From positions 1 through 51,326 of the forward strand of contig QOQC01000002.1 in assembly GCA_003331365.1 (NCBI GenBank): a DNA stretch of 51,326 nucleotides, written 5' to 3'. The first letter of the stretch is position 1. Every line of letters begins with the position of its first letter. Shown here one piece after another: positions 27,491-46,453 of the stretch. The position numbers and the translations under genes were made by a program. Source of the stretch: Flavobacteriales bacterium. Its GTDB lineage: Bacteria; Bacteroidota; Bacteroidia; Flavobacteriales_D; Crocinitomicaceae. The notes beneath the pieces are model-generated. The model was not told where the DNA came from. It did not search any database and saw only the letters and a program-made list of their open reading frames with translations.

Positions 27491-28912
27491 ATGTGGCATC
27501 ATTTATGCAAAACAATGCGTATGAGAATCCTGCTTCTTCTTTTTCTTTCTTACCCTATTTCAGGAATGTCAAATACAAAAATATTTGGCTCTGCCCCCAA
27601 TGCCATCAATCAATATGTATATGTTAGTGGAATCGAAGATTATTTAACGAACACCGAATCAATAATTTATACCACTTCTGTGAATGAAAAAGGTCAGTTC
27701 TTGATTGAGCTAAATAATTCTGGCATAGAAGAAGTTGTCATTAGAATTAAGAACTCCTATGCGCATTTATATGTTCAAAACGATACCAAATATTATATAG
27801 AGTTCCCCGAAGAGTCTATAGATGCAATCAACTATTTTTCTGGAAGTGAAACAGAAATTTTGTTTTTTAATTTAGACAGTACTGACATCAATTATAAAAT
27901 TCTCGGGTTTGAAGCCTGGATGGATGATGTCATGGCAGACCTATACATTTTGAAAGATGTCGAGTCAACAAAATTTATTGATGGTGTATTAAAGTTTAAG
28001 GCAGAAGTACAAAAAGAATATGCAAATGATACTTCCATGTTCTTTAAAGATTATGTACGATATTCTCTTGGAAAAACGATAGACAACATCTACTATTTTG
28101 GAGCACCATCTAAAGAGACTAAATACGATTTTTTCATAAAAAACAGCCCTGTTCTTTATAAGAATTCCGCTTATATGGGTTACATAAATGACTTTTATGA
28201 TCAATACCTTTTTCAATTAAATAAAGATATTAGAGACCCATTAATTCAATCCATATACAATAGCAGCGCTCCAAATATGCTACAAGCGATTTCATTTGAT
28301 AGTCTTGTTCCTAATATTGAATTGACGGAGTTGGTTGCGCTCAAAATCATTCAACAGGAATACAATTCCAATAGGCTACCAAAAAATAATCTGATCTCGA
28401 TTACAAATCAGATTAGAATGAACACGACAAATACACAAAGTGAAATCATAGCTGAAAATCTGATAGAACAATTTTACACCCTCATTGAAGGAGACCCATT
28501 CCCCATAATGAAGCTGACAGAAGAAATAGAACTCAAACCGGCTAAAAACAGGTACCTATACATTCATTTTTTTGATCCAGAAAATCCAAACAGTTTATCT
28601 GAAATACTGGCATTAAGAAGGTTGTATGAAAAGTACAATAGCCATATTGACTTTGTTACCATTTATCTAAACCAGAGAACCGAAACAAGTGTCTTCGCTC
28701 AAAGAGTAATTTCAGGGATAAAATGGGAGTATTATGCACTTGACTATGGTCATGTTATTTGGAAATCGTTGAATATAGGGTCTTTTCCTTATTATATTCT
28801 TGTAAAAGACAACTTAGAAATAAAAGGATTACCAGCCCTAGGACCAACACCAAATGGTGTCTATGAAACAATCGAAAGAACATTTCATGATATAAAACAA
28901 GGAAAAGGTTAA
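27491..28912 (+). CDS. Exported protein with thioredoxin-like C-terminal region
   Basis: A 473-residue secreted or periplasmic protein. The signal peptide is MRILLLLFLSYPISGMS; ATGs at 27491, 27515 and 27521 are possible and the last two would give the most typical signal. An N-terminal beta domain (FGSAPNAINQYVYV) resembles the peroxiredoxin-linked DUF4369-type modules of Bacteroidota. From about residue 335 (PFPIMKLTEEIELKP, then YLYIHFFDPENPNS) the fold looks thioredoxin-like, but the CxxC pair is absent, so it is probably not an oxidoreductase. It follows coaD after one base. Its stop codon abuts that of clpS. Confidence 0.6.
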   Translation: MWHHLCKTMRMRILLLLFLSYPISGMSNTKIFGSAPNAINQYVYVSGIEDYLTNTESIIYTTSVNEKGQFLIELNNSGIEEVVIRIKNSYAHLYVQNDTKYYIEFPEESIDAINYFSGSETEILFFNLDSTDINYKILGFEAWMDDVMADLYILKDVESTKFIDGVLKFKAEVQKEYANDTSMFFKDYVRYSLGKTIDNIYYFGAPSKETKYDFFIKNSPVLYKNSAYMGYINDFYDQYLFQLNKDIRDPLIQSIYNSSAPNMLQAISFDSLVPNIELTELVALKIIQQEYNSNRLPKNNLISITNQIRMNTTNTQSEIIAENLIEQFYTLIEGDPFPIMKLTEEIELKPAKNRYLYIHFFDPENPNSLSEILALRRLYEKYNSHIDFVTIYLNQRTETSVFAQRVISGIKWEYYALDYGHVIWKSLNIGSFPYYILVKDNLEIKGLPALGPTPNGVYETIERTFHDIKQGKG

Positions 28913-29188
28913 TTACTCTATCTCTGCAGACAAACCATTTTGCGTCAATGCATTCTGCATTTTTCTCAAAATGGTAAGCTTTCCACTTTTGATATTACAT
29001 TTTCCCCTATTATGAACCAACCAAGCACATTGTTCAGCTTGAACAACATCATGCTGACAGATACGAATCAAGCAATTAATAACATGATCAAATGTATTAA
29101 CATCATCATTGTACAATACCAATGAATAAGAATTGGATATTTGCTTTTTAGATTTTTGTTCTTGCTCTGTTTTGGTTGTATATTCCAT
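28913..29188 (-). CDS. clpS: ClpS, ATP-dependent Clp protease adaptor
   Basis: N-degron adaptor that delivers proteins with destabilising N-terminal residues to a Clp ATPase. The 91-residue size is normal. SLVLYNDDVNTFDHVI carries the substrate-pocket Asp pair, and AWLVHNRGKC matches the AVHYQGKA segment with the pocket His. The N-terminal ~20 residues (KTEQEQKSKKQ) are the flexible tail. Its likely partner is the ClpC at 7126-9663. It is the last gene of the long minus-strand run, 5 nt after the giant envelope protein. Its stop abuts the stop of the convergent thioredoxin-like gene. Confidence 0.93.
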   Translation of the reverse strand: MEYTTKTEQEQKSKKQISNSYSLVLYNDDVNTFDHVINCLIRICQHDVVQAEQCAWLVHNRGKCNIKSGKLTILRKMQNALTQNGLSAEIE

Positions 29189-29193
29189 ATGGA

Positions 29194-32100
29194 TTACTTT
29201 ACTAATTCATTCAATTCATCAATTAAGTTTGAACGCTCTAGTTCACTACTCAAATAGAAAACGACGTGTTGTATTCCGTTGAAAACAACGAAACTAAAGG
29301 TTTTGTTGGATCGAAGTAACCAGTTTGCAAGCTTTCCTGGTATCTTGTCTCCAATTTCCACCTCATATTCAAAAAGTTCATTAGTTTCAAACAGCTTTTC
29401 TTCCATGCCTTTCATGTAAAAGGACATAATGGGAGTAATCTTAGCTTTATTCAAAATAGCAGATTTAATTAACGAATTTTCTTTATGATAATTAAAGAGA
29501 GCCACCCTGTTAAGGCGCTCTATTGTACTTTCGTCAAACACATCTGATTGCAATTCATAAGAAACAAATTCATCTTTAATAGTTGATTCCTTTACTCTTA
29601 TTATAGGAATTTGAATTCGATTCTTTTGAGATTCAGTAGAGGTATTCGATTGACTACTTTGCTTTTCTTTTATTAATTCTGTGGACTCCATGGATATCAC
29701 AGGCACAGTAGTCGATTCTTTTTCAAAAAGGATACTGTTTCCTTTTTCATTTAAAAGTGCTTTAGATTTTTGAATTGAAATTCGCTCACCATTATAAAAT
29801 GCAACAATAAATGCATCAGAAATACCTAAAGAGACTACCTCTTTTTGCCTTTCCCTTGCCTCATCAATTGATTCGAATTTTCCGGAGGAATATCTGTAAA
29901 GACCGGAAGATAAATAATAATTTAATTCCTGAAGCTGAGTCAATTCACCAGCTCTTATTTTTCGATTGAATGCTCCAACCTGAACAGTATAAAACAATCC
30001 ACTTACATTGACACCACTTACTACTTGAGACCCATGCTGTTCTATTCGCAATTGTTGATTGGTATTATTAGATTTAGTATTATCGGTATTTTCATTGTTT
30101 ACAAGGCTGCCATTTTCTTCGGCTCTGGAGGATTCACCACCAGACCCGGAAGAGGAAATAGTAGCATTTGAATTTTCAGCATTTATGGCAATCAATTCAT
30201 TTCTGTTTGAAGCTACACATGTACCATTTCTTTCATGTTCTTTTCCTTTCCAAAATGTCAATCGTTCATCATTACAATAGGATACAACAAAAGCATCTGA
30301 ATAACCAATTGACCTTATTGTTTTTTGTGCACCCAAAGCGTCTGAACTATTATTAAAATAGCCAGCCATATATACAATTAATCCGTTATTCAGTTTTTGC
30401 CCAGAAACTGGAGTAAATTCGCGATATACATCTTCTCTCACTGGTCTTCTGAAAGCTCCTACTTGCACTCTAAAATTCAATCCTGATGGATTAGATTCAA
30501 AAATTGGTAAAGTTTCCGTATTTCTTTCAACAACCTCTTCTTCAAGCATAGCAAAGCTATTTCTATCAGAATTTAAAGGCTGATACACCTCAAGAATTGA
30601 TTGATTAATCCTAGATGAGGATGAAAGGTTATTATTTGATAGAGAATTGTTTACATAAGATTCAAAAATTTCGGACGAGTCTATGGATTTCATCTCTTCC
30701 ACCAATGAAAGAATATCATTGGATAACCTTTTTCGTTTTCTTTCACTTACAAACTGAAAAGCATTTTCTTCACTTTCGGTGATTGACTTTTCTGATTCAT
30801 TTCTTTTTTCGTTATCTAGTTTAACCAGCTCTTCAAGTTGTAGAGAGAGTAGCGCTCTTTTTTCCACATAACTCTTAAAGGAATTTGATTCTATAAAATT
30901 ATTGTCAATAAAGTCATCAGTAGATTCAAGTTCATCGCCAATTCCCGAGATAACTTCATTTATATCATTAGTATTTCTTAGACTTTTATCCTGGTTTATG
31001 TACACTTCAGGATTTATCTCCCCTCTGAATAAATACTCAAATGTTTCAGAATCTTCCAGCTGAACAAGTTGTTCCTTTCGCTCACTTATACCCTCCTTAA
31101 GATAGGTAATGGCATCTTGAATATCTGACAGCTTTTGAATTAATTCTATTTGGTCATTAGTTAGGTCCGAACTATTAATATTTTGTCTTAAAGACTCATC
31201 AAGCTCAAACATCAACAACTCATTTTCAACTAATAAATCTTCTAACAAAAGAAATTCATCTTCAATTTTGTCTCGATTTTTTACATAATCATAATAGGCA
31301 TTACTTTTTCGAATTTCATTTGTAGAATTATCCTCTACAGCTGAATATTTTATATCAATATTATTTTTTGAAAGCGTCTTTAATTCCTCGAGCTCAATTT
31401 GCAACATATCTTTCTTTCGCTCATTTGCATCAATTAATTTTGAAATGAGTGATTTAACATTAGAAGAAGAAGCTTGATCAAGCTTCATTTTCAAATCTCG
31501 TTCTTTGAATTCCAATTCACGTAATTGTGCTTCTATATTACTTTTTCCTTCAAATTTCACATTTGAATATTTGCGTTTAATCTCAAGATATTTGTTTTCA
31601 ATTTTCTCATTTGCTATTGCTATATCAAGTTCTTTTTGAAAATACGCTTTTAAATTCTCCTCATTTGCTTGAACTATATCTCTTTCGTCTATCTTTTCCG
31701 AAGATGGATCTCTCATATTTTCCTCCAAAACCAATGAGGTCAAATATTCAACTGTCTTACTGTTTTCCTGAATAAATTGATCATCTTGATCAACTTTTTC
31801 GGTTTCTGAAGCTATTATCTCTGTTGGACTCTCCTCTTCTTTGGTATCGATGGTTTCTGCTATGGTTTCGCTAGACTCCTCTTCAACTAGATCTTCTGAC
31901 CTCGAATCAGTAGCTACAACAGTTTCTTCTTCATTCCCTTCAATTTCGGTAGCAACTACCTCTGTTGAGCGCTCCTCTTCTCTAGTTTCGATGGTTTCTG
32001 CTATGGTTTCGCTAGACTCCTCTTCAACTAGATATTCTGACCTCGAATCAGTAGCTACAACCGTTTCTTCTTCATTCCCTTCAATTTCGGTAGCAAGGAC

Positions 32101-35100
32101 CTCTGTTGAGCGCTCCTCTTCTTTGGTTTCGATGGTTTCTGCTATTGTCTCGGTAGACTCCTCTTCAACTAGCTCTTCTGACCTCGAATCAGTAGCTACA
32201 ACCGTTTCTTCTTCATTTCCTTCAATTTCGGTAGCAAGCACCTCTGTTGAGCCCTCCTCTTCGATGGTTTCAATGGTTTCTGCTATGGTTTCGGAAGACT
32301 CCTCTTCAACTAACTCTTCTGACCTAGAATCAGTAGCTACAACCGTTTCTTCTTCATTCAATTCAATTTCGGTAGTAAGTACCTCTGTTGAGCTCTCCTC
32401 CTCTCTGGTTTCGATGGTTTCTACTAATGTCTCGGTGGACTCCTCTTCAACTAACTCTTCTGACCTGGAATCAGTAGCTACAAACGTTTCTTCTTCATTC
32501 CCTTCAATTTCGGTAGCAAGGACCTCTGTTGAGCGCTCCTCTTCTTTGGTTTCGATGGTTTCTGCTATTGCCTCGGTAGACTCCTCTTCAACTAACCGTT
32601 CTGAATCGATATTGGGTACAATAGAAGCCAAATTTTCATTTACTTCAATAATCTCCGAGATATTATTTTCTGAAACCTGAATAAGCTCGCTAAGCTCTTC
32701 ATTCAACTCAAGATCATTTTCATCAGCATGTATATTTAATTGTTCAATAAATTCTGCTTCTAATACAACCAATAATGAATCCTTAATAGTTTGCGGAAAT
32801 TGGGACGAGGCAATTTTAGTTATATCATCTTCTCTATCATCAGTTATAATCTCCAGCTCTTCCTGCTTTTCAATTTCTTTGTTATTAAATATTTCATCCG
32901 CGTAAAATTTAGTTTTTTCCTCTTCTGCGATTAATAGATCAGTACTATTCATTTCGCTTTCAATACTCGAATCAGTTTCAATAAGTGTTAGATTCAACAA
33001 AGATTCTTTTGAAAGGATAATTTGTTCAGCAAGTTCTTCCCTTTCGAGTTCAAGATTCTTTTTCTTTTTTTCCTTCTTTGAAATATTAATCTCAACCATG
33101 GTTATAGAATCAGAAATTAACTTCCATTCTTCAATGGTTTTAGCTGCAAGAAGCTTTTTATTCAAATTATTGAGTGTATTTTCTTCACTCAAAACCTCAT
33201 CTTTAGCATTTGCGATTAATTTTTCCTTATTTTCAAATTCCTTCTCAAGCTGACCTTGTTTTTCCCTTGCCATTTCCGGAATGGAGGGAACCATGGGCTC
33301 AAAGCTTTCTGGCGCTTTATAACTGCTTATAAGAGTGCTTACCGAATCGAGCTTTCCATTGTATTTATTTTCACTTATAGCCTTGTTAACCGAAGAAATC
33401 TCCTCGTAATTACGATTCAGCTGCCCATCACTTGGGAATTTATCAAATAACTCCGTTTGGTCATCGAAATTCTCAATGAGTGCTTTGCGTTTCACATAAG
33501 ACTCCCTGAGTTCTATTTGCAATTTTCCTTTCTCATTTTCATCCTTGGAGTCTAATTCAGATTTAATTCTATTGATATTTTCATCAATATTGGAAAGCTT
33601 TTCTTTAGCTTCTATCAAATTTTTGGCGATTTGATTTTTTTGTCTTTTTTGATCTTCAATCTCAGCTTCTATATCATACAGCTCATCAATCTTCTCATCA
33701 ATTTCTGCATTAGAAAGAATTTCGGTAATAATACTTTCATTTATTTCTTCACTTGCCTTAATTGATTCTGAATTCACCACTAATTTTGAAAATTCCTGAA
33801 AATCAATTTGATCGATTTCAGCAATTACATCTGAATTATTAATGAGCTGCTCGTCTAGTACCACAACCTCTTTTGAATCCATCAGCTTCCGAGTACAAAT
33901 CACTTGATAATCAAAACCATCTACTTCTGGAGGGAAATTGACCTCATCCATAAATTGTATATCACTTCCTTCTATTGATGCCGTTATTTCATAAACACCA
34001 GGTGCAGGAATTAAAAAATGAACCGTACCTTTTTCATTTGTGTTAAATGGCCCAAACTTTTCTTGTGAATTTCTATTTTTTAAATAAAATTGTGCATTTC
34101 TATTTTCACTATTTATTTGATCTCGAAAAGCCAAACTAGAAACGAAAGTCGGTACTTTTTCATCGCTAAGTCTGGATTTAACCACCTCTAATAAACCAAC
34201 ATCTGAATTTCGATTCGTTGAAAAATAAGCATAAGCCGCAGATTCAACAGGAATGTATAGAAAGTCATCATAGGTTGAAGAATATGGGAAATTTAAATTT
34301 TCAATCGTTCCGTATTCGAGACTTTTTAGATTCAATCGTATCCTAAATACATCCATTCCACCAATCGAACTATGTCCATCAGAGCTAAAATACAAATACC
34401 CACTTCCTTCATCATAAAAAGGAAAATCTTCGTTGAATGAAGAGTTGACATCTGAACCCAATCGAATTGGTTCTTGCCACTCATTATCTGATCCTTTTTT
34501 TTGAATAAACAAGTCTTTTCCTGTTTCTTCTATTTTGGAATAACTGGAAAAAAACCTGTATTTCATGCCTCTCTTAAAAACATATTTAGGCACAAAACTC
34601 ATTTTTTGATTGATTTTGGAAAATTCATCATTTACCGAATAGAGCTTATAATTTTCTGAATCAAATACATATGATGAAAAATAGTCATCTAATGGCATGG
34701 ATTCCATAGAAATTACCTCAATCGCTCTTGGACTTTTTAATAAACTTAGCGCGTTTTGACATCTTTTGATTTCTTCTAAACAGCGATAGTCTTTATCTTT
34801 ATTTGACCTGATCTTTTCATAGTCCTCATACATTTCTATGGCTTGTTGAAACTGATAATTTAAATGGTATAAACGACCCTTGAAATAGAATACGTCAATC
34901 GGAAATCCTTCTTGATTCAATAGATAATCAAAATATTTCTGAGAAGATTTAGGACTCTTTGTATAATAAAGACAAACAGCATATTTGTAATTATAATCTA
35001 TGTTTTTAATATCATTAGATAATAACTGACGAAAACCCTCAATGGCGCTTTTATAATCTTCCTTTGAAAATGAAGCATTGGACTTTTTCAAAAGCTGACT

Positions 35101-35184
35101 TTCAGTTTGGGCAATACCTAACTGAATCGTACTGAGAAGCACAAAAAAAAGAACAAAACGATATTTGTAGTTATTTAAAAACAA
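29194..35184 (-). CDS. Giant PorE-like TPR/PD40 protein with acidic repeats and two SPOR-like domains
   Basis: A 1996-residue envelope protein. The order is: signal peptide YRFVLFFVLLSTIQLGIAQ; TPR helices (~25-140); a PD40-type propeller (~150-345, with DEGSGYLYFSSDGHSSIGG); a carboxypeptidase-regulatory-like fold (~350-430, with GVYEITASIEG); coiled coils (~500-760); an acidic array of 47-residue repeats (~861-1128); more coiled coil; SPOR-like domain 1 (~1570-1645, RVQVGAFRRPVRE) and 2 (~1730-1803, YTVQVGAFNRKIR), each ending in a DAFVV/DAFIV strand; and a C-terminal domain of unknown type. The first half matches PorE-like T9SS proteins, but PorE ends in an OmpA-like domain. The only start is TTG at 35184, in frame after the plsY stop 27 nt upstream. 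SPOR domains bind denuded peptidoglycan in other bacteria. Confidence 0.8.
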   Translation of the reverse strand: MFLNNYKYRFVLFFVLLSTIQLGIAQTESQLLKKSNASFSKEDYKSAIEGFRQLLSNDIKNIDYNYKYAVCLYYTKSPKSSQKYFDYLLNQEGFPIDVFYFKGRLYHLNYQFQQAIEMYEDYEKIRSNKDKDYRCLEEIKRCQNALSLLKSPRAIEVISMESMPLDDYFSSYVFDSENYKLYSVNDEFSKINQKMSFVPKYVFKRGMKYRFFSSYSKIEETGKDLFIQKKGSDNEWQEPIRLGSDVNSSFNEDFPFYDEGSGYLYFSSDGHSSIGGMDVFRIRLNLKSLEYGTIENLNFPYSSTYDDFLYIPVESAAYAYFSTNRNSDVGLLEVVKSRLSDEKVPTFVSSLAFRDQINSENRNAQFYLKNRNSQEKFGPFNTNEKGTVHFLIPAPGVYEITASIEGSDIQFMDEVNFPPEVDGFDYQVICTRKLMDSKEVVVLDEQLINNSDVIAEIDQIDFQEFSKLVVNSESIKASEEINESIITEILSNAEIDEKIDELYDIEAEIEDQKRQKNQIAKNLIEAKEKLSNIDENINRIKSELDSKDENEKGKLQIELRESYVKRKALIENFDDQTELFDKFPSDGQLNRNYEEISSVNKAISENKYNGKLDSVSTLISSYKAPESFEPMVPSIPEMAREKQGQLEKEFENKEKLIANAKDEVLSEENTLNNLNKKLLAAKTIEEWKLISDSITMVEINISKKEKKKKNLELEREELAEQIILSKESLLNLTLIETDSSIESEMNSTDLLIAEEEKTKFYADEIFNNKEIEKQEELEIITDDREDDITKIASSQFPQTIKDSLLVVLEAEFIEQLNIHADENDLELNEELSELIQVSENNISEIIEVNENLASIVPNIDSERLVEEESTEAIAETIETKEEERSTEVLATEIEGNEEETFVATDSRSEELVEEESTETLVETIETREEESSTEVLTTEIELNEEETVVATDSRSEELVEEESSETIAETIETIEEEGSTEVLATEIEGNEEETVVATDSRSEELVEEESTETIAETIETKEEERSTEVLATEIEGNEEETVVATDSRSEYLVEEESSETIAETIETREEERSTEVVATEIEGNEEETVVATDSRSEDLVEEESSETIAETIDTKEEESPTEIIASETEKVDQDDQFIQENSKTVEYLTSLVLEENMRDPSSEKIDERDIVQANEENLKAYFQKELDIAIANEKIENKYLEIKRKYSNVKFEGKSNIEAQLRELEFKERDLKMKLDQASSSNVKSLISKLIDANERKKDMLQIELEELKTLSKNNIDIKYSAVEDNSTNEIRKSNAYYDYVKNRDKIEDEFLLLEDLLVENELLMFELDESLRQNINSSDLTNDQIELIQKLSDIQDAITYLKEGISERKEQLVQLEDSETFEYLFRGEINPEVYINQDKSLRNTNDINEVISGIGDELESTDDFIDNNFIESNSFKSYVEKRALLSLQLEELVKLDNEKRNESEKSITESEENAFQFVSERKRKRLSNDILSLVEEMKSIDSSEIFESYVNNSLSNNNLSSSSRINQSILEVYQPLNSDRNSFAMLEEEVVERNTETLPIFESNPSGLNFRVQVGAFRRPVREDVYREFTPVSGQKLNNGLIVYMAGYFNNSSDALGAQKTIRSIGYSDAFVVSYCNDERLTFWKGKEHERNGTCVASNRNELIAINAENSNATISSSGSGGESSRAEENGSLVNNENTDNTKSNNTNQQLRIEQHGSQVVSGVNVSGLFYTVQVGAFNRKIRAGELTQLQELNYYLSSGLYRYSSGKFESIDEARERQKEVVSLGISDAFIVAFYNGERISIQKSKALLNEKGNSILFEKESTTVPVISMESTELIKEKQSSQSNTSTESQKNRIQIPIIRVKESTIKDEFVSYELQSDVFDESTIERLNRVALFNYHKENSLIKSAILNKAKITPIMSFYMKGMEEKLFETNELFEYEVEIGDKIPGKLANWLLRSNKTFSFVVFNGIQHVVFYLSSELERSNLIDELNELVK
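31800..32601 (-). repeat. 141-bp coding tandem repeats (47 residues), five full copies plus a partial one
   Basis: Reading on the minus strand, units start near 32601, 32460, 32319, 32178 and 32037, with a sixth, divergent and truncated copy from 31896. The core is LVEEESTETIAETIETKEEE, followed by STEVLATEIEGNEEETVVATDSRS. The units are Glu/Thr/Ser-rich and strongly acidic. Copies 3, 4 and 5 are nearly identical, which implies recent duplication or conversion and makes copy number likely to vary between strains. Confidence 0.9.
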
Positions 35185-35211: not shown

Positions 35212-35841
35212 TTACGCCTTACGACCTAAAAAGTTCATTTTATTCTCCTCTCCACGAAGTAGGCGGTTAATATTTTTTCTGTGAGAAAACAAAACAATCA
35301 AGGAAACAAGAATGGAAAAAATAATCATTATTCTCGCATCCTCATGCATGGCAAAAAAGCTTATAAAAGGAAATAATATTGATGCAATAATAGCACCAAG
35401 TGAGACGTATTGCGAAATCAAAAAAACGATTAAAAATATAGCCAATGAAATAAGTGCAGTGTCTAAATTAATTGCCAAAATGATTCCCAAAGTTGTTGCA
35501 ACTCCTTTACCTCCGCGAAAATTTGCAAATACCGGAAAAACATGGCCAATTACTGCACACAACGAAGCAATCAGCTGAAGAATAAGAACTTCATCTTTGA
35601 AGCCATAATAAAGGCTACTGAGAAAAATAGGCAATGAAGCTGCTAGATAACCCTTTCCAATATCCACAAATAAAACAATCCACCCCCATTTATTTCCCAA
35701 TACTCGAAATGTATTTGTTGCTCCAGCATTATGACTACCATGCTCCCTAATATCAATATTATGAAATATTTTCCCCACCCAGACAGCAGTTGGGAAAGAA
35801 CCAATGATGTAGGAAACAAATATGAGTATGAAAAATATCAT
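35212..35841 (-). CDS. plsY: Acyl-phosphate:glycerol-3-phosphate acyltransferase PlsY
   Basis: Integral membrane enzyme that makes lysophosphatidic acid from acyl-phosphate and glycerol-3-phosphate, the first step of phospholipid synthesis. The three conserved motifs are present: SYIIGSFPTA near the N-terminus, GSHNAGATN (active-site loop), and FRGGKGVATTLG. About five membrane spans are seen in its 209 residues. The start overlaps the stop of the 1530-residue gene (ATGA), so it is translated from the same message. The giant SPOR-domain protein follows 27 nt later. Confidence 0.95.
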   Translation of the reverse strand: MIFFILIFVSYIIGSFPTAVWVGKIFHNIDIREHGSHNAGATNTFRVLGNKWGWIVLFVDIGKGYLAASLPIFLSSLYYGFKDEVLILQLIASLCAVIGHVFPVFANFRGGKGVATTLGIILAINLDTALISLAIFLIVFLISQYVSLGAIIASILFPFISFFAMHEDARIMIIFSILVSLIVLFSHRKNINRLLRGEENKMNFLGRKA

Positions 35842-38800
35842 TTTATTTTTTTTAGCCGCATTAATTCATACATTTTCCCTTCATCTCCATCTGTGAAAGT
35901 AAAGTTTTTTGACTTTCTTTTATCTTCCTTAATACTCAGAATTGTATTCATATAACCAACATCGGGAGAATAAATAAACAATTTACCATTCTTCTTTTCT
36001 TTAATGAATTTAAATGAATAATTTAATTCTGAGGCCTCATCCTGAATATCTATTTCAAATCCTTGAACAGATTCTTCAGTTCCTGACTGGAGGAAAAGCA
36101 TTTTCATAGGAATTCTTTTAAGAACAATTTTTTCATTAATTGAAAAAACAGGTGTTCGAGAATATTTGGTTATAAACCCGGAAACAGCGTCACGATCAGC
36201 GATTTTCTTATTCATGTAATATTCAAGATAAAGCTCTGGAAAAATATATGATTGATTTAAGAAGGTAGGCGTTTTTTTCAACTTATCTTCATCATAATCT
36301 TTGAACAGTTTTTCAGCCTTATCTTCACTTTTCGATAAGATCGTAAAGATATCGGTTAACCTCTCTTGCGTGGATTTACTGAAAGTATATTCCTCCAATG
36401 TATCGGACTGCTGAAAAATACCTGCCATATAATGTGAAATATTTTTAGGGAGTGGAATATCCATTTTTGTAAATGCATTGATACTTGTTAGATTCTTTTT
36501 CTTGTTGTAATTAATATCTCCAAAAGAGGTTAAAACAACTGGTGCAAGATCAATTCCCAAATCAATTTCACCTCTACCGTTCAATGAACAAGTCTTCTCA
36601 TTTAAAATCAGAGAGTTATTCCGATAAGAATATTTTTCACCAGGAAGCTGATCAGAAAGCGTAAATTGTTCCAAATCATAATCATACTCTAAAATACCAG
36701 AAGCCGAAAACATTAATACGTCTTTCTCTCCTTCTTTTTTAGATAAAAAAGTGGGGTAAACATATAAACTATCTTGAACTTCCGTATCCTTCCACAAGAA
36801 ACCAGCAGCCAATGCTCCTTTATTTTTGCTGGTTGGATTTTGCGGTATAGGAATCTGCACATTTGAAGCCAAAATCGTATCACTGAATTTCATCCAAGAT
36901 TTATTAAAATCACATAAATGATTCACTCTTGTATATCCATCACAAATTACACCATCATTTTTTGACGAAACGCTAAAGCCACCGAAATAATCAAACTTTG
37001 AGCTCAACTTGAAATTGGACTCTTCCTTTATATCAGTTTTTGCAATGGTCTGGATTTTATCAAAATAGATGCTTCCAATATCAATTTTCGTAAGAGCGCT
37101 ATCCCGATCGTAGTATAAATACAGCCCATTACCATAAAATTCATTGCGACCCTTAACTTCAACCGTAACATCAGAAAATTGATGGATTTTTGTTATTCTA
37201 TTTGCCAAAATTTTCGCATTATAAAGTGTATCCATAACTGCATTTTTTTGGATTTTTAATCTTTTCCCTTCAGGAAAGATAAACGCATCTCCCAATTCCA
37301 AAAAATTAACTTTAAAACAATTTATAGCTTCATTTTTTAAGTCATATTGTGCGCTAATTGACTTAAACTGAAGGGAATCCTGATTTTCATCCATGGAGAA
37401 AAAGTTGTTCTTCACTATACCTTCACTACTCTCAAATTTTGTTTCCGCTTCTTTGTTCTTTTCAAAATCAATTGACTCTCCATCCATCTGCCAAAGAAAC
37501 TTATCCATCTGACAGTAATAATTATTGCTTGGAAATTTAATACGTTTCGTGCCACTTGAATTAAATTCCCCAATTCGTTTTTCAAAAGAAATATATGATT
37601 TTAACCCATCAGATTGAATGGCTAATGGATTTTCACCAGCCTTAGCAAATCGATTTCTAAGATTAAACGATGATGAGTCTGAAAATACTTCCGTCGAAGA
37701 AAATGTATATTCCTCCGCAAACATTGATGCATCAAGTAAATTTAAACTACCAGAGCCATCAACGCCATTTTCAGAAAAAGTAAGTTTCCCTTTGAGGTAA
37801 CATTGATTGCCAAACATCGAAATAAAATTATCTCTATGGGTTTTTACAGTCAATACCTTTTGCCTAGGTTTAAATGAAATTTCAGCAATTTCAGCTGCAA
37901 CCTCAGGAAACTCAACACCAATTGAATCTTTGGTATTATAAAATTCTGCCAAACCAATTGTAGAGTCAGGCAAAAAAGTAAGTTTTCTTGAGATCGCCTC
38001 TGCGTTCATGAAATCAATGGTACCAGCTCCTTGCAACCCGTTATTTGACAAAACTATTTTATTTTGATACCTCGATTCAGTCTCATAAAAAGAATAACCC
38101 TCTTCTGGAGCCTTAGTCACAAAACCAAAAGAATAATCGTTCATTATTTTCAATGGCTCATCCAGATCTGGGAAAATACCATCAGACTTCAATAACCCCG
38201 TAAAGCGTAGACTTTTTTCATCAAAATTATCCAAGCTATCCAATACGAAAGGATCAAGCGCGTAATAAAATCTTGTACTATCATAAGAACCATTTACAAT
38301 AGACTTTGAATTGTAAAATATTTTAAGTGAATCTTTTACCTCAACATATGGATACTCTCCATTTCCACCATGTCGTCCTGATTTCGAATCTTGTACATCA
38401 ATGTACAATTTTCCTTTAAAATCATTAAAGCTACTCACCATATCAATTGGCCTTCCACCGTCTCTTGGATTCAATGGTAAAACACTTAAGTAAGCCTCAT
38501 TCGTTGTATCAATTGAAATGGTAAAATCTTCATAATCAAATATTGATTCTATATTATGAGTAATCAATTTACCTGACATTAGCCATCCAGAGAATATAAT
38601 GTCTCGATTTTCAAGCATTCGAATATAGGATGAGTCAGGAAACAAAACGGTTCTTTGCTTGGTTGAGAAATTAACCTGTTCAATTTCATTTAAATAAATT
38701 TCATTTTCATCTACATCTATATAGGCATAGCATGGTGTCCTCTTTCTTCTTTTTGACACTTCTTGATATTCTTTCTGCATTTTCTGTAAATATGGATCCT

Positions 38801-40430
38801 TGCGAATCTCATCTTCAGAATAATTCAGCATTTTAGGCCTAAGGTCAGTAACAAACATGAGCTCGTCATAATCCTTTTCACCTTTCTTAGATAATGCATA
38901 ATTAAGTAGTTTCTGCTCTACAATCACATGGCTTGAATTGGAGGAATATTGAATAAATCCCATACTGGATATATCAATAAGCTGAGATTTGGCTTGTCCT
39001 ACTGTTTTGCGAAGTTTACTGGCAACTAATCCAACAGGAAGATAAGTTGTATCTTCCACAATACTCAATTCTGCTATTTTCATCAAGGGATTAATATTAC
39101 CAATGCCTGAAAATTTATCAAACGTACGTTCATCAAAATAGTCCCAGGACTCAACATGCGCATATCTTTGAGATTGCGCTGTACCAACCTCATATGTATA
39201 CATGGGAAATGCTGTATTCAAACGCCAAGATAAAACAGGAGCATCAACAAATATTTTAAAATAATTATCTATAAAAGGTATAGAATTAGTGCCTTTTTTA
39301 CCTGCAGTAATCCTTAACTCTTTTTGATCTTCATTCCAATATACAACCGCATCAGTTGTATATAACGAATCCCCATTGTCGTAATACATCGAAATATCTG
39401 CATTTCTCGTAATAATTTGTTGTGGAGTCATTAAAAAATTAAGTGATCGAAGCTCAAAAAGACTTTTATCTTTATAATTAACGGTGAGTTTTGCCAGGTT
39501 ATCTTCTACACCCCTTCCGATAAAACTTGCTCCTTCAAGAGTAAATCCACCGTCATAATCAATTTGATCCCTTAATCCCTTAATTAATAATCTTTTTTCA
39601 AATGAATTAAAAATAGGACTAGATTCACCTTCTTTTAAATTAAATACCGTTTTATCTTCTAGTCTACCCAAAATCGGTTGCTCAAAATACGGTGTGGTAA
39701 GTTCCACAGTATCGACTTTTAAAATAGATTGATTTGCCTTTACCGTATAGCCCCTAACTTTAGCGAAGGTTTCATTTTTTGGGAAATGAACCTTTTCCCA
39801 TGTCAGTTTTCCTCCTCTTGCTTTCCAAATGTTTTGAGCAATATCAAAGTAACCTGTTGTATTGTATACAACAATACTATCTCTAGGTCCAGATTGATAA
39901 ACCATACATTTAAGATCTGTGCTTTTCACTACCAATCGAAGAGATTTTTTATTTTCCCATTTCAAGCTTCCTCCATCAAGTACCCATCTATGATCTGGCT
40001 TCTTATAAAAGCTTCTGTACTTAAACAGTCCCTCACTAAAATGAATAAATTCCCTAAATTCTACTGGCACCATTTCACTTAAAAAAGTTTCATAGAATGC
40101 ATGCCATTGAGCTGTAAATGAAGGAGAAAAAGAATTCGTTTTTGAATAGTAAAGGGCATATATATAATGCATTACATCTGATGACTCATATGACTTTTTA
40201 AACATTGAATTACATGTCTCAATAAATCGATTGTATTCTTGAGAATTTAATTTTGAGTTCTGAATGAATTTCGAAAAATCATGTTTGACGAAATGTGAAA
40301 AAGACTCATTTTCAATGATTTTAGGTAACTGTTTTAAGAGCTTATCTTTCTCCGATGATAGTTTCTGTGCATGAATTGAACCGAGCAAAAAGAAAAATAA
40401 TGAAATAAGTAAAAAACGCATAAACCTCAT
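35838..40430 (-). CDS. Large exported protein, 1530 residues, unknown function
   Basis: I do not recognise a domain. The signal peptide is RFLLISLFFFLLGSIHAQ. The next ~100 residues look helical (KIIENESFSHFVKHDF and so on). The remainder is a very long beta-rich region with alternating patterns and recurring DSLYTTDAVVYW- and GLYLYYDRDS-like strands, consistent with a filamentous or barrel-like beta structure; no transmembrane helix, no cysteine pattern and no sorting domain are evident. I start at the ATG at 40430, which overlaps the prmA stop (ATGA), and not at 40454. It lies between prmA and plsY. A long beta-rich exported protein near lipid genes may be a lipid- or LPS-handling bridge, but this is a guess. 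Confidence 0.6.
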   Translation of the reverse strand: MRFMRFLLISLFFFLLGSIHAQKLSSEKDKLLKQLPKIIENESFSHFVKHDFSKFIQNSKLNSQEYNRFIETCNSMFKKSYESSDVMHYIYALYYSKTNSFSPSFTAQWHAFYETFLSEMVPVEFREFIHFSEGLFKYRSFYKKPDHRWVLDGGSLKWENKKSLRLVVKSTDLKCMVYQSGPRDSIVVYNTTGYFDIAQNIWKARGGKLTWEKVHFPKNETFAKVRGYTVKANQSILKVDTVELTTPYFEQPILGRLEDKTVFNLKEGESSPIFNSFEKRLLIKGLRDQIDYDGGFTLEGASFIGRGVEDNLAKLTVNYKDKSLFELRSLNFLMTPQQIITRNADISMYYDNGDSLYTTDAVVYWNEDQKELRITAGKKGTNSIPFIDNYFKIFVDAPVLSWRLNTAFPMYTYEVGTAQSQRYAHVESWDYFDERTFDKFSGIGNINPLMKIAELSIVEDTTYLPVGLVASKLRKTVGQAKSQLIDISSMGFIQYSSNSSHVIVEQKLLNYALSKKGEKDYDELMFVTDLRPKMLNYSEDEIRKDPYLQKMQKEYQEVSKRRKRTPCYAYIDVDENEIYLNEIEQVNFSTKQRTVLFPDSSYIRMLENRDIIFSGWLMSGKLITHNIESIFDYEDFTISIDTTNEAYLSVLPLNPRDGGRPIDMVSSFNDFKGKLYIDVQDSKSGRHGGNGEYPYVEVKDSLKIFYNSKSIVNGSYDSTRFYYALDPFVLDSLDNFDEKSLRFTGLLKSDGIFPDLDEPLKIMNDYSFGFVTKAPEEGYSFYETESRYQNKIVLSNNGLQGAGTIDFMNAEAISRKLTFLPDSTIGLAEFYNTKDSIGVEFPEVAAEIAEISFKPRQKVLTVKTHRDNFISMFGNQCYLKGKLTFSENGVDGSGSLNLLDASMFAEEYTFSSTEVFSDSSSFNLRNRFAKAGENPLAIQSDGLKSYISFEKRIGEFNSSGTKRIKFPSNNYYCQMDKFLWQMDGESIDFEKNKEAETKFESSEGIVKNNFFSMDENQDSLQFKSISAQYDLKNEAINCFKVNFLELGDAFIFPEGKRLKIQKNAVMDTLYNAKILANRITKIHQFSDVTVEVKGRNEFYGNGLYLYYDRDSALTKIDIGSIYFDKIQTIAKTDIKEESNFKLSSKFDYFGGFSVSSKNDGVICDGYTRVNHLCDFNKSWMKFSDTILASNVQIPIPQNPTSKNKGALAAGFLWKDTEVQDSLYVYPTFLSKKEGEKDVLMFSASGILEYDYDLEQFTLSDQLPGEKYSYRNNSLILNEKTCSLNGRGEIDLGIDLAPVVLTSFGDINYNKKKNLTSINAFTKMDIPLPKNISHYMAGIFQQSDTLEEYTFSKSTQERLTDIFTILSKSEDKAEKLFKDYDEDKLKKTPTFLNQSYIFPELYLEYYMNKKIADRDAVSGFITKYSRTPVFSINEKIVLKRIPMKMLFLQSGTEESVQGFEIDIQDEASELNYSFKFIKEKKNGKLFIYSPDVGYMNTILSIKEDKRKSKNFTFTDGDEGKMYELMRLKKIK

Positions 40431-41260
40431 TTTTGAAGAATGAGGATTGCCCATTCATCCTTTACAGTAGTTGATATAAATTTGAATCCAACTTGATTAG
40501 CCAGAGTTTTCAACTCACTGACATCTGTACTAAAAAAACCACTTAAATATAACAATCCATTTTCACATAATGAGTCGAAATATTTCGGTAAATGTTTCTT
40601 TAAAATATTTTTATTAATGTTTGCAAGTATGACATCAAATTTCTTGCCATCAATGAGATTTACATCCCCACAAATCGTATCAATAAACTCACATTCATTT
40701 AAAACAATATTTTCTTCACAGTTTTCAATAGACCATTCTTCAATATCAATTGCGGTTATGTCTTTGGAACCCTTCTTTTCAGATAAAATGGCTAAAACAC
40801 CAGTACCTGTACCCATATCCAATACCTTTTTACCTACTAAATCTAACCGAAGGATAGCTTCACACATCAAAAAAGTTGTCTGATGATGCCCTGTTCCGAA
40901 AGACATTTTTGGTTGAATTATAATGGTGGAATTGAAATTTTCTTTGTGTTCGTGAAAAGGCGCTCTTATATAGAGTTGTTCAGCTATTTCAACAGGATCA
41001 AAGTTAGCCTCCCAGCTTGCATTCCAATTTTGATTTTCGATTTCTAATTTTTCATATGAAATTTCCACATCGTCTCCTTCTAATGATCCCAATAAAGAGT
41101 TAAAGATTAACTCATCAAAATCCGTATTCGAAATAAATGCCTTGAGTATTCCATCCTCCTCATAGAATCCATGAAAATCAATTTCTGATAGATAGGCGAT
41201 TAATATTTCTGTCCATGGCTTTAAAGGAGTTATTTTAAATTGAAATTCTAGATGACTCAT
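40427..41260 (-). CDS. prmA: Ribosomal protein L11 methyltransferase PrmA
   Basis: Methylates ribosomal protein L11 using SAM. The motif SFGTGHHQTTFLM is diagnostic, followed by the SAM site VLDMGTGTGVLAILS and the acidic ITAIDIEEW. The ILANINKNIL segment matches the catalytic N-x-N region. The N-terminal ~100 residues form the L11-binding domain. Its 277 residues are normal for Bacteroidota. The start overlaps the tpiA stop (ATGA) and the stop overlaps the next start (ATGA), so it is fully embedded in the operon. Confidence 0.93.
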   Translation of the reverse strand: MSHLEFQFKITPLKPWTEILIAYLSEIDFHGFYEEDGILKAFISNTDFDELIFNSLLGSLEGDDVEISYEKLEIENQNWNASWEANFDPVEIAEQLYIRAPFHEHKENFNSTIIIQPKMSFGTGHHQTTFLMCEAILRLDLVGKKVLDMGTGTGVLAILSEKKGSKDITAIDIEEWSIENCEENIVLNECEFIDTICGDVNLIDGKKFDVILANINKNILKKHLPKYFDSLCENGLLYLSGFFSTDVSELKTLANQVGFKFISTTVKDEWAILILQK

Positions 41261-44486: not shown

Positions 44487-45431
44487 ATGAGGTTCTTTGC
44501 CTTCTTTATTTCCGTAGCATGTAGTTTTTTGGCGTTAAGTCAAGCACCTACAGCAAACTTCTCGATGTCGGATAGCCAATTATGTCAAGGTGAATGTATA
44601 ACACTTACGAATAATTCCACGGGTAATCCCATCAATTTTGAGTGGACATTTCAAAATGGAACACCCGAAACATACAATGGATCTAACCCAGGACCAGTTT
44701 GCTTCAATACACCCGGAACATATACCATAACATTAAATGTTTCAAACACCTTTGGAAGCAACCAAACAGCTCAGACTGTAAATGTTGGCGCTACTCCTTC
44801 TGTAGTTGCAACTCTTTCTGACACCGTAAATGGAGCATATGTCGAGATTGAAGATACTACAATTGCCATGTACGAAGAGGCATACTTATATGCGACAGGA
44901 ACTCCACCCGGAGGTAGTATGATTTGGTATCCAAGTGGTGTGATTTCTGATAGTTTGTCACCATTACCAAATGATTCTTTAATCGTAACCCCTTTCTATG
45001 ATACTTATTATGTAGCCGCGTATACAACACCTGAGGGATGTACTTCTTACGACACTGTGCTGGTTTCAGTATGGTTTCAAGACACGCTTGCAACAGATAG
45101 CATATTGGTTGGTATTAATGTTTCTCTTCCCAATTCATTTTCACCTAATGGAGATGGTCAAAACGATTATTTTAGGGTTTTAACCAATGTGGACGCAGAC
45201 CAAAACTTCAGTAATGGTTTTTACGAAGGAGGAGCGATTGTTGAAGTTGATTTTAGGATTTATGACCGATATGGCCAAATGCTATTCAGAACAACTGATC
45301 CACATGAAGGCTGGGATGGAAATTATAGAGGTAAACCGGTAAACCCAGCTACCTATTCTTATTTACTCGAATATCGTCTCATTGACGGCGTTTCAAAATT
45401 ATTAAAAGGAAACGTAACCTTATTTAGATAG
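44487..45431 (+). CDS. PKD-domain protein with T9SS type B (gliding-associated) C-terminal domain
   Basis: A 314-residue exported protein. The signal peptide is RFFAFFISVACSFLALSQ. A PKD domain follows (about residues 22-105, with FEWTFQNG and GTYTITLNVSN), then a ~100-residue beta region, and the type B sorting domain begins at LPNSFSPNGDGQNDYF, continues with FRIYDRYGQMLFR and ends with GNVTLFR. Type B domains direct secretion by T9SS, and proteins with them are generally retained on or released from the surface. The adjacent PorP/SprF-like gene, 5 nt downstream, is probably its dedicated partner. Confidence 0.9.
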   Translation: MRFFAFFISVACSFLALSQAPTANFSMSDSQLCQGECITLTNNSTGNPINFEWTFQNGTPETYNGSNPGPVCFNTPGTYTITLNVSNTFGSNQTAQTVNVGATPSVVATLSDTVNGAYVEIEDTTIAMYEEAYLYATGTPPGGSMIWYPSGVISDSLSPLPNDSLIVTPFYDTYYVAAYTTPEGCTSYDTVLVSVWFQDTLATDSILVGINVSLPNSFSPNGDGQNDYFRVLTNVDADQNFSNGFYEGGAIVEVDFRIYDRYGQMLFRTTDPHEGWDGNYRGKPVNPATYSYLLEYRLIDGVSKLLKGNVTLFR

Positions 45432-45436
45432 TTGAC

Positions 45437-46453
45437 ATGAAAAAAATTGCACTTGTAATCATTTTATTAGGAGCCCATCAAGTTTTTGGGCAGCAAGATA
45501 AGTCTATGAGTATGTGGTCTCAATCTCCGATGATGTATAATGCTGGTTCTGTGGCTACTGGAGAAGAAGATTATAGCTTTTTTACAAACTTCAGATATCA
45601 GTGGTTTACTGTTGGCAACAAGCCAATGAGGACAAACATATTGAATGCGAGTTTTAAAATACCTGATGGTTTTTTAGGTTCAAACAATTTTGGAATAGGT
45701 ATTAATGCGGTAAATGATCAAACTGGTGATATTGGTTTTATGACCACTGCCGTTTCTGTGCCAATCAATTATACAATGGCCCTAGACAGAAGAAATAAAT
45801 TATCTGTTGGAGTTGCTCCTGGTTTTTATCAGCAAGGTTATGACCCTACACTTCAAACATGGGAAAGTCAATGGACAGGAGGAGGATTTAATCCAAACAT
45901 CAATAGTGAACCGTCATTAGATCCAGATGCAAGTTATTCCACAATCGATATCAGTTCGGGTGTATTTTATCAGCATACATTAAGAAATAAAACACTTCTT
46001 TATGGAGGAATCGGATTAAATCACCTCACTAGACAAAAAATTAATTTTTCCTTTACAGGTGATCGACTATATATGCAGACTGTTGTCCATGCAGGAGCTA
46101 ATATCTTTACAAAAAAGAGAGATTTGAGAATACAGCCTCAACTTATGTATTTCAAAACAGGGCCTGGTTCTAATCTCATAGGCGGAGTATCGCTTGAGCA
46201 TATATTAAAAGAAGGTTCGGCGATTACCAACATAAACAAAACAGTAACCGTAAATTATGGATTTTATTACAGACACAACGATGCGTTAGTAACCACATTT
46301 GGTTTTAAGATTAAAGGATTCAGGTTAGGAGTTTCTTTTGATGCTAATCTTTCTTATTTCAATCAAGCTACAAATAGTTTGGGGGCATTTGAAATATACT
46401 TGAAGACACTTCATCTGTATAAAAATTCAAATAAAAGAGATAAAATATTGTAA
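45437..46453 (+). CDS. PorP/SprF family type IX secretion membrane protein
   Basis: A 338-residue outer membrane beta-barrel protein. The signal peptide MKKIALVIILLGAHQVFGQ is followed by the family motif SMWSQSPMMYNAG and then FRYQWFTVGN, and by alternating amphipathic strands to the end. In Flavobacterium johnsoniae SprF supports export of SprB, a type B sorting-domain adhesin, and many PorP/SprF paralogues are linked to one type B cargo gene. Its position 5 nt after the PKD/type B protein therefore fits a cognate cargo-anchor pair. It ends one base from the convergent deaminase gene. Confidence 0.9.
   Translation: MKKIALVIILLGAHQVFGQQDKSMSMWSQSPMMYNAGSVATGEEDYSFFTNFRYQWFTVGNKPMRTNILNASFKIPDGFLGSNNFGIGINAVNDQTGDIGFMTTAVSVPINYTMALDRRNKLSVGVAPGFYQQGYDPTLQTWESQWTGGGFNPNINSEPSLDPDASYSTIDISSGVFYQHTLRNKTLLYGGIGLNHLTRQKINFSFTGDRLYMQTVVHAGANIFTKKRDLRIQPQLMYFKTGPGSNLIGGVSLEHILKEGSAITNINKTVTVNYGFYYRHNDALVTTFGFKIKGFRLGVSFDANLSYFNQATNSLGAFEIYLKTLHLYKNSNKRDKIL

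Follow-up and report, generated by a model that had tools for sequence, protein, structure and literature searches.

A PorE-like head joined to SPOR domains in a giant, predicted periplasmic protein conserved across an order of Bacteroidota

We find that one gene in a 51,326-nucleotide stretch of DNA from a Flavobacteriales bacterium (contig QOQC01000002.1; the whole stretch is called the window below) encodes a giant protein in which a head homologous to PorE is followed, from N- to C-terminus, by a spacer of ~1,100 residues, two SPOR domains (SPOR-A and SPOR-B) and a folded tail. The gene (29194..35184, on the minus strand, as are all its parts described here), marked at these positions in an earlier note made from the DNA letters, has homologues in the order; it starts with TTG and runs for 1,996 residues without an internal stop. 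The domain plan is conserved across the order, the genome carries a separate PorE-like gene, the SPOR subtype is shared with an amidase, and the upstream neighbour is conserved as well. From this we infer a protein that may bind glycan at particular places in the cell wall and keep a partner there on a leash.

The protein opens with a typical Bacteroidota Sec signal peptide (residues 1-26, 35107..35184), delimited by alignment and ending ...LGIAQ, with AQ at the end; the earlier note, too, had placed a signal peptide here. None of 64 family members has a lipobox cysteine, so that no outer-membrane anchor is seen, and we propose from the signal that the protein is exported by Sec to the periplasm. 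Behind the signal come a TPR region (~residues 27-150, 34735..35106), which hits TPR families in Pfam and, in a profile search, TPR structures; a short PD40-type propeller region (~151-345, 34150..34734), assigned through PD40 and an HHalign alignment to PorE; and a carboxypeptidase-regulatory-like region (~346-445, 33850..34149), assigned through CarboxypepD_reg and a match to the CHU_0125 model that extends to residue 406. Across 21 family members Pfam detects TPR families in up to 11, PD40 in 6 and CarboxypepD_reg in 2, the last leaving CRD homology to PorE weakly supported. Searched by sequence against the PDB, the whole protein returns weak TPR-type matches and nothing else.

The NCBIfam model of PorE scores the giant at 54.4 bits (E 7e-15), against a curated cut-off of 600. 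The head's best NCBIfam match, to the CHU_0125 family OmpA-like proteins (NF053607; 82.7 bits, E 2e-23, best stretch residues 190-406), is far below the 620-bit cut-off, and the OmpA end of that family is absent in the giant. Profile-profile comparison with HHalign of the head (residues 24-445) against an alignment of 20 PorE-like proteins from the same order gives a probability of 99.9% (E 3.4e-37) over TPR and propeller, which bears out the PorE resemblance proposed in the earlier note. The propeller of that proposal is indeed homologous to PorE's, but since ~100 residues of the PorE propeller are unmatched in the alignment, it is shorter by about that length. Neither OmpA_C nor any other OmpA family is found in the giant and 20 homologues (0/21), in line with the note's view that the protein ends differently from PorE.

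At the other end, SPOR-A (residues 1567-1647, 30244..30486) and SPOR-B (1729-1805, 29770..30000) are recognised by Pfam as well as by predicted fold. Against a cut-off of 21 bits for SPOR (PF05036), SPOR-B (1731-1794) scores 34.5 bits in the whole-protein search and SPOR-A (1571-1634) 21.8 bits when searched alone; AlphaFold models both at pLDDT ~90. Foldseek with the C-terminal model finds the SPOR domains of CwlC (1x60, TMt 0.72) and RlpA (6i05/6i09, TMt 0.57-0.58), and the rows ranked near these SPOR structures are mostly other ferredoxin-like folds with poor TM. The two stretches singled out as SPOR-like in the earlier note (1570-1645 and 1730-1803) are thus SPOR domains, and what that note missed is a folded C-terminal module behind them (1872-1996, 29197..29571; pLDDT 76-90), predicted to consist of two beta-alpha-beta-beta-alpha units. 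By sequence, HHalign of this tail against SPOR-A and SPOR-B gave no usable match. We call it SPOR-like in predicted topology only, because of that topology and because distant homologues of other families (L085, L118, L127, L131) have a third recognisable SPOR at the tail position.

In RlpA, residues Q270, F274 and R309 contact denuded glycan (PMC6895207). When equivalence is set by motif rather than by residue-level structural superposition, the Q270 position holds an invariant Gln in both SPOR-A and SPOR-B (39/39) and the R309 position of SPOR-B holds R in 36 and K in 2 of 39 members, while the corresponding SPOR-A residue is V1604 here and R in 20 of 39 members. SPOR-A here, with V1604 for R309, may bind weakly or differently. 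A C-terminal SPOR fold with a conserved Gln at the predicted glycan-contacting position is a feature that the giant has in common with DamX, DedD, FtsN and RlpA. The first three are inner-membrane anchored with one SPOR each and RlpA is a lytic enzyme; to our knowledge, neither a TPR/propeller head nor so long a spacer occurs in any of the four.

Which wall material the SPOR domains might read is best indicated by a gene elsewhere in the genome. The only Amidase_3 gene detected in this 68% complete genome (L178:1361-2551, minus strand) has a SPOR-like C-terminal domain that Pfam misses. HMMs of the giant's SPORs score this C-terminus at 49.5 and 42.5 bits, and reach at most ~9 bits on the two further proteins of the genome in which Pfam finds SPOR. 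By HMM, the giant's SPORs and the amidase's C-terminal domain are of the same subtype. The match recurs in other families, where the giant's SPOR profile also finds amidase genes (L135, L138, L139 and L140); L135 and L139 match in both regions, and L138 and L140 are identified as amidase genes by their catalytic domain. A search of 30 genomes, this one and those of relatives, found Amidase_3 in every one. These Bacteroidota amidases are catalytic proteins of ~400 residues, whereas the giant would be a scaffold, and identity of subtype is no proof that the ligand is the same, because the amidase's own SPOR-like domain is without the GAF motif. The match is nevertheless the best pointer we have, though an indirect one, to amidase-processed peptidoglycan and hence to septa or growth zones. 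A location at the division site, as the earlier note suggested, would follow by analogy from SPOR biology, and it gains indirect support because the giant's SPORs match this amidase-linked domain.

Between head and SPOR pair lie ~1,100 residues that are charge-rich with few Pro and Gly, made up of a charged first part (~residues 446-870, 32575..33849), an acidic repeat array (~863-1122, 31819..32594) and a second part, again low in Pro and Gly (1123-1566, 30487..31818). Judged by composition, a coiled coil is plausible here; the coiled coils of the earlier note are a statement on composition here, from the low Pro/Gly content, with a heptad signal that is patchy and confined to parts of the spacer. 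The acidic array that it described is real, with 5.5 copies of a 141-bp unit at 91% match in TRF (47 aa x 5.5). It is almost missing from the closest relative (locus L052) and so is a recent local expansion; for the same reason we reject it as the functional core. An antisense open frame of 279 residues (31841-32680, plus strand) mirrors the acidic repeat and is an artefact, not a gene.

Across homologues the spacer varies from 730 to 2378 residues, with the head (414-427 residues) and the SPOR pair constant, and from this combination a leash is expected rather than a ruler. A straight helix of 1100 residues at 0.15 nm per residue would span an estimated ~165 nm, several times the width of the periplasm. 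Both points disfavour a strut of fixed length between the outer membrane and the wall. The bridge between outer membrane and cell wall proposed in the earlier note loses ground on two counts: a radial bridge is geometrically unlikely with so long a spacer, and no outer-membrane anchor is visible.

Drawing on the Pfam- and fold-supported SPORs, their invariant Gln, the amidase match, the PorE-homologous head and the variable spacer, we put at about an even chance a reading in which the giant acts as a leash in the periplasm, linking an envelope partner to peptidoglycan that the amidase has processed. Sec would export the protein to the periplasm, where the C-terminal SPORs would hold it to glycan strands freed of stem peptides by the amidase. 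The partner complex, which is probably an envelope protein, would dock on the TPR/propeller head, and the spacer, as a leash of variable length and not a strut fixed between outer membrane and wall, would keep that docked partner at amidase-processed wall, mostly septal or in growth zones.

Is this architecture a peculiarity of one genome? A taxonomic survey gives the answer no. The common plan (head, spacer, SPOR-A, SPOR-B, then tail or third SPOR) is present in all 63 full-length homologue loci, which include some same genomes fetched twice. Of 238 near-complete genomes from the order, which comprises Crocinitomicaceae and allies, marine and freshwater Bacteroidota, 188 (~79%) have the giant by a search with the SPOR-pair profile, and so do 50 of 60 genera. 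Searched with the head profile, 49 of 60 genomes each have a single strong match, which nearly always falls within a giant frame. Of 393 genomes sampled across the phylum, only three, all of this order, give matches at full strength (E below 1e-40). Around one fifth of the order's near-complete genomes are without the gene and, since several clades lack it, the giant is not universally required and is dispensable in some. Named carriers include MAGs of Brumimicrobium, Taishania and Fluviicola. Some database labels look doubtful: L071 (CP034120.1), titled Glaciecola amylolytica THG-3.7, has a Crocinitomicaceae-type gene cluster and is probably mislabelled, and the MAG titles Actinomyces viscosus, Chryseobacterium gleum and Chitinophaga pinensis also look wrong. 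One homologue (L072:2645-9959) is split into two frames of 2074 and 399 residues, probably by a sequencing frameshift in the MAG.

We now ask how the giant relates to PorE itself, a scaffold with a peptidoglycan-binding end (PMC7192894). PorE (PG1058) shares with the giant the TPR-propeller-CRD-like order at the N-terminus, a periplasmic location and an expected hold on peptidoglycan. It differs in being ~650-700 residues long with an OmpA_C end, whereas the giant lacks OmpA_C and adds an 1100-residue spacer and a SPOR end. P. gingivalis PorE also has a lipoprotein signal, unlike the giant family. The source genome encodes a separate 710-residue protein with TPR, PD40 and OmpA, again without a lipobox, which aligns with the PorE model end to end and gives the genome's best score (366 bits, below the curated cut-off of 600). 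Such an OmpA-ended PorE-like protein is found in 30 of 30 genomes searched. With OmpA_C missing and a separate PorE-like gene present, we reject the giant as the PorE orthologue and consider it a paralogue of the PorE-like group.

This bears on an alternative in which the giant is an accessory of T9SS or gliding, with its PorE-like head placed within the T9SS ring or next to it, and with its SPORs replacing the OmpA_C wall anchor. The homology of the head to PorE speaks for it, as does the presence within the same window (44487-46453, plus strand) of a T9SS type B sorting-domain protein followed by a PorP/SprF gene, a typical T9SS substrate-anchor pair. However, the genome's own OmpA-ended PorE-like gene weakens the T9SS role implied in the earlier note. 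In two genomes (G030 and G034) a PorE-like protein scores 480-515 bits, yet no full-length giant was found there, and many other paralogues in these genomes have the same head with OmpA_C, so that this head by itself is no sign of T9SS. We regard this role as unlikely.

The gene neighbourhood offers a different clue. Directly upstream of the giant in 55 of 59 testable loci is a gene for a 1,538-residue protein with a signal peptide (35838..40454, minus strand), for which no Pfam or NCBIfam family was found. The structure model of its C-terminal 1,108 residues is an all-beta chain at pLDDT 85. This neighbour is more conserved than the giant itself. PlsY (35212..35841, minus strand) lies between the two giants here and in the upstream stretch of 44 of 59 testable loci, and ClpS (28913..29188, minus strand) lies downstream in 43 of 59. 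Throughout the genus, the giant keeps synteny with a gene for a secreted protein of 473 residues (27491-28909, plus strand) whose C-terminus is weakly thioredoxin-like.

One could read this arrangement as a joint role of the two giants in the biogenesis of outer-membrane lipids or LPS, for instance as a wall hold for a periplasmic lipid-transfer structure. The adjacency, often with PlsY between, and the confident all-beta model, whose best Foldseek matches are LptD chains (E 4e-6), lend this some appeal, but the LptD matches are local and weak (TM <=0.15, 8% identity) and inherited gene order may be enough to explain the adjacency, as ClpS and CoaD also stay near the giant. Because other orders, too, have the neighbour with no giant next to it, the link between the two is suggestive, not strict; in G032 they are on different contigs. 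We think a lipid or LPS role quite improbable. A tether in division-linked outer-membrane constriction, taking over part of the Tol-Pal role, would have room in these bacteria, as TolB_N is absent from 25 of 25 genomes searched (controls detected), and would suit a SPOR subtype common to giant and amidase, but we consider it very unlikely given that the many OmpA-domain proteins present could do the job, that TolB absence is not tied to the giant (G030 is without both) and that no outer-membrane anchor is seen.

The leash reading can be extended, speculatively and with little confidence, to an order-wide, wall-guided scaffold in which a PorE-derived leashed head would place an outer-envelope complex at amidase-processed septal glycan, together with the all-beta periplasmic neighbour, in bacteria without TolB.

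Each domain is known, and the combination appears undescribed in the literature searched, as the earlier note had supposed. Searches on SPOR with Flavobacterium, Bacteroidota or PD40, over literature with few subscription papers, returned nothing on the giant protein and no paper on SPOR proteins in Bacteroidota division. New here are the amidase-like SPOR subtype, the folded last 125 residues, the conserved all-beta neighbour and a spacer of 730 to 2,378 residues. A PorE-type head has been combined with a second wall reader of different chemistry, SPOR and not OmpA_C, and this combination is kept across the order. With head plus SPOR as a signature, and with the conserved gene upstream, direct tests are possible in Brumimicrobium or Taishania cultures. 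Should the SPORs bind denuded glycan, PorE-type scaffolding would be tied by a single protein to amidase activity, and so probably to cell division, in Bacteroidota.
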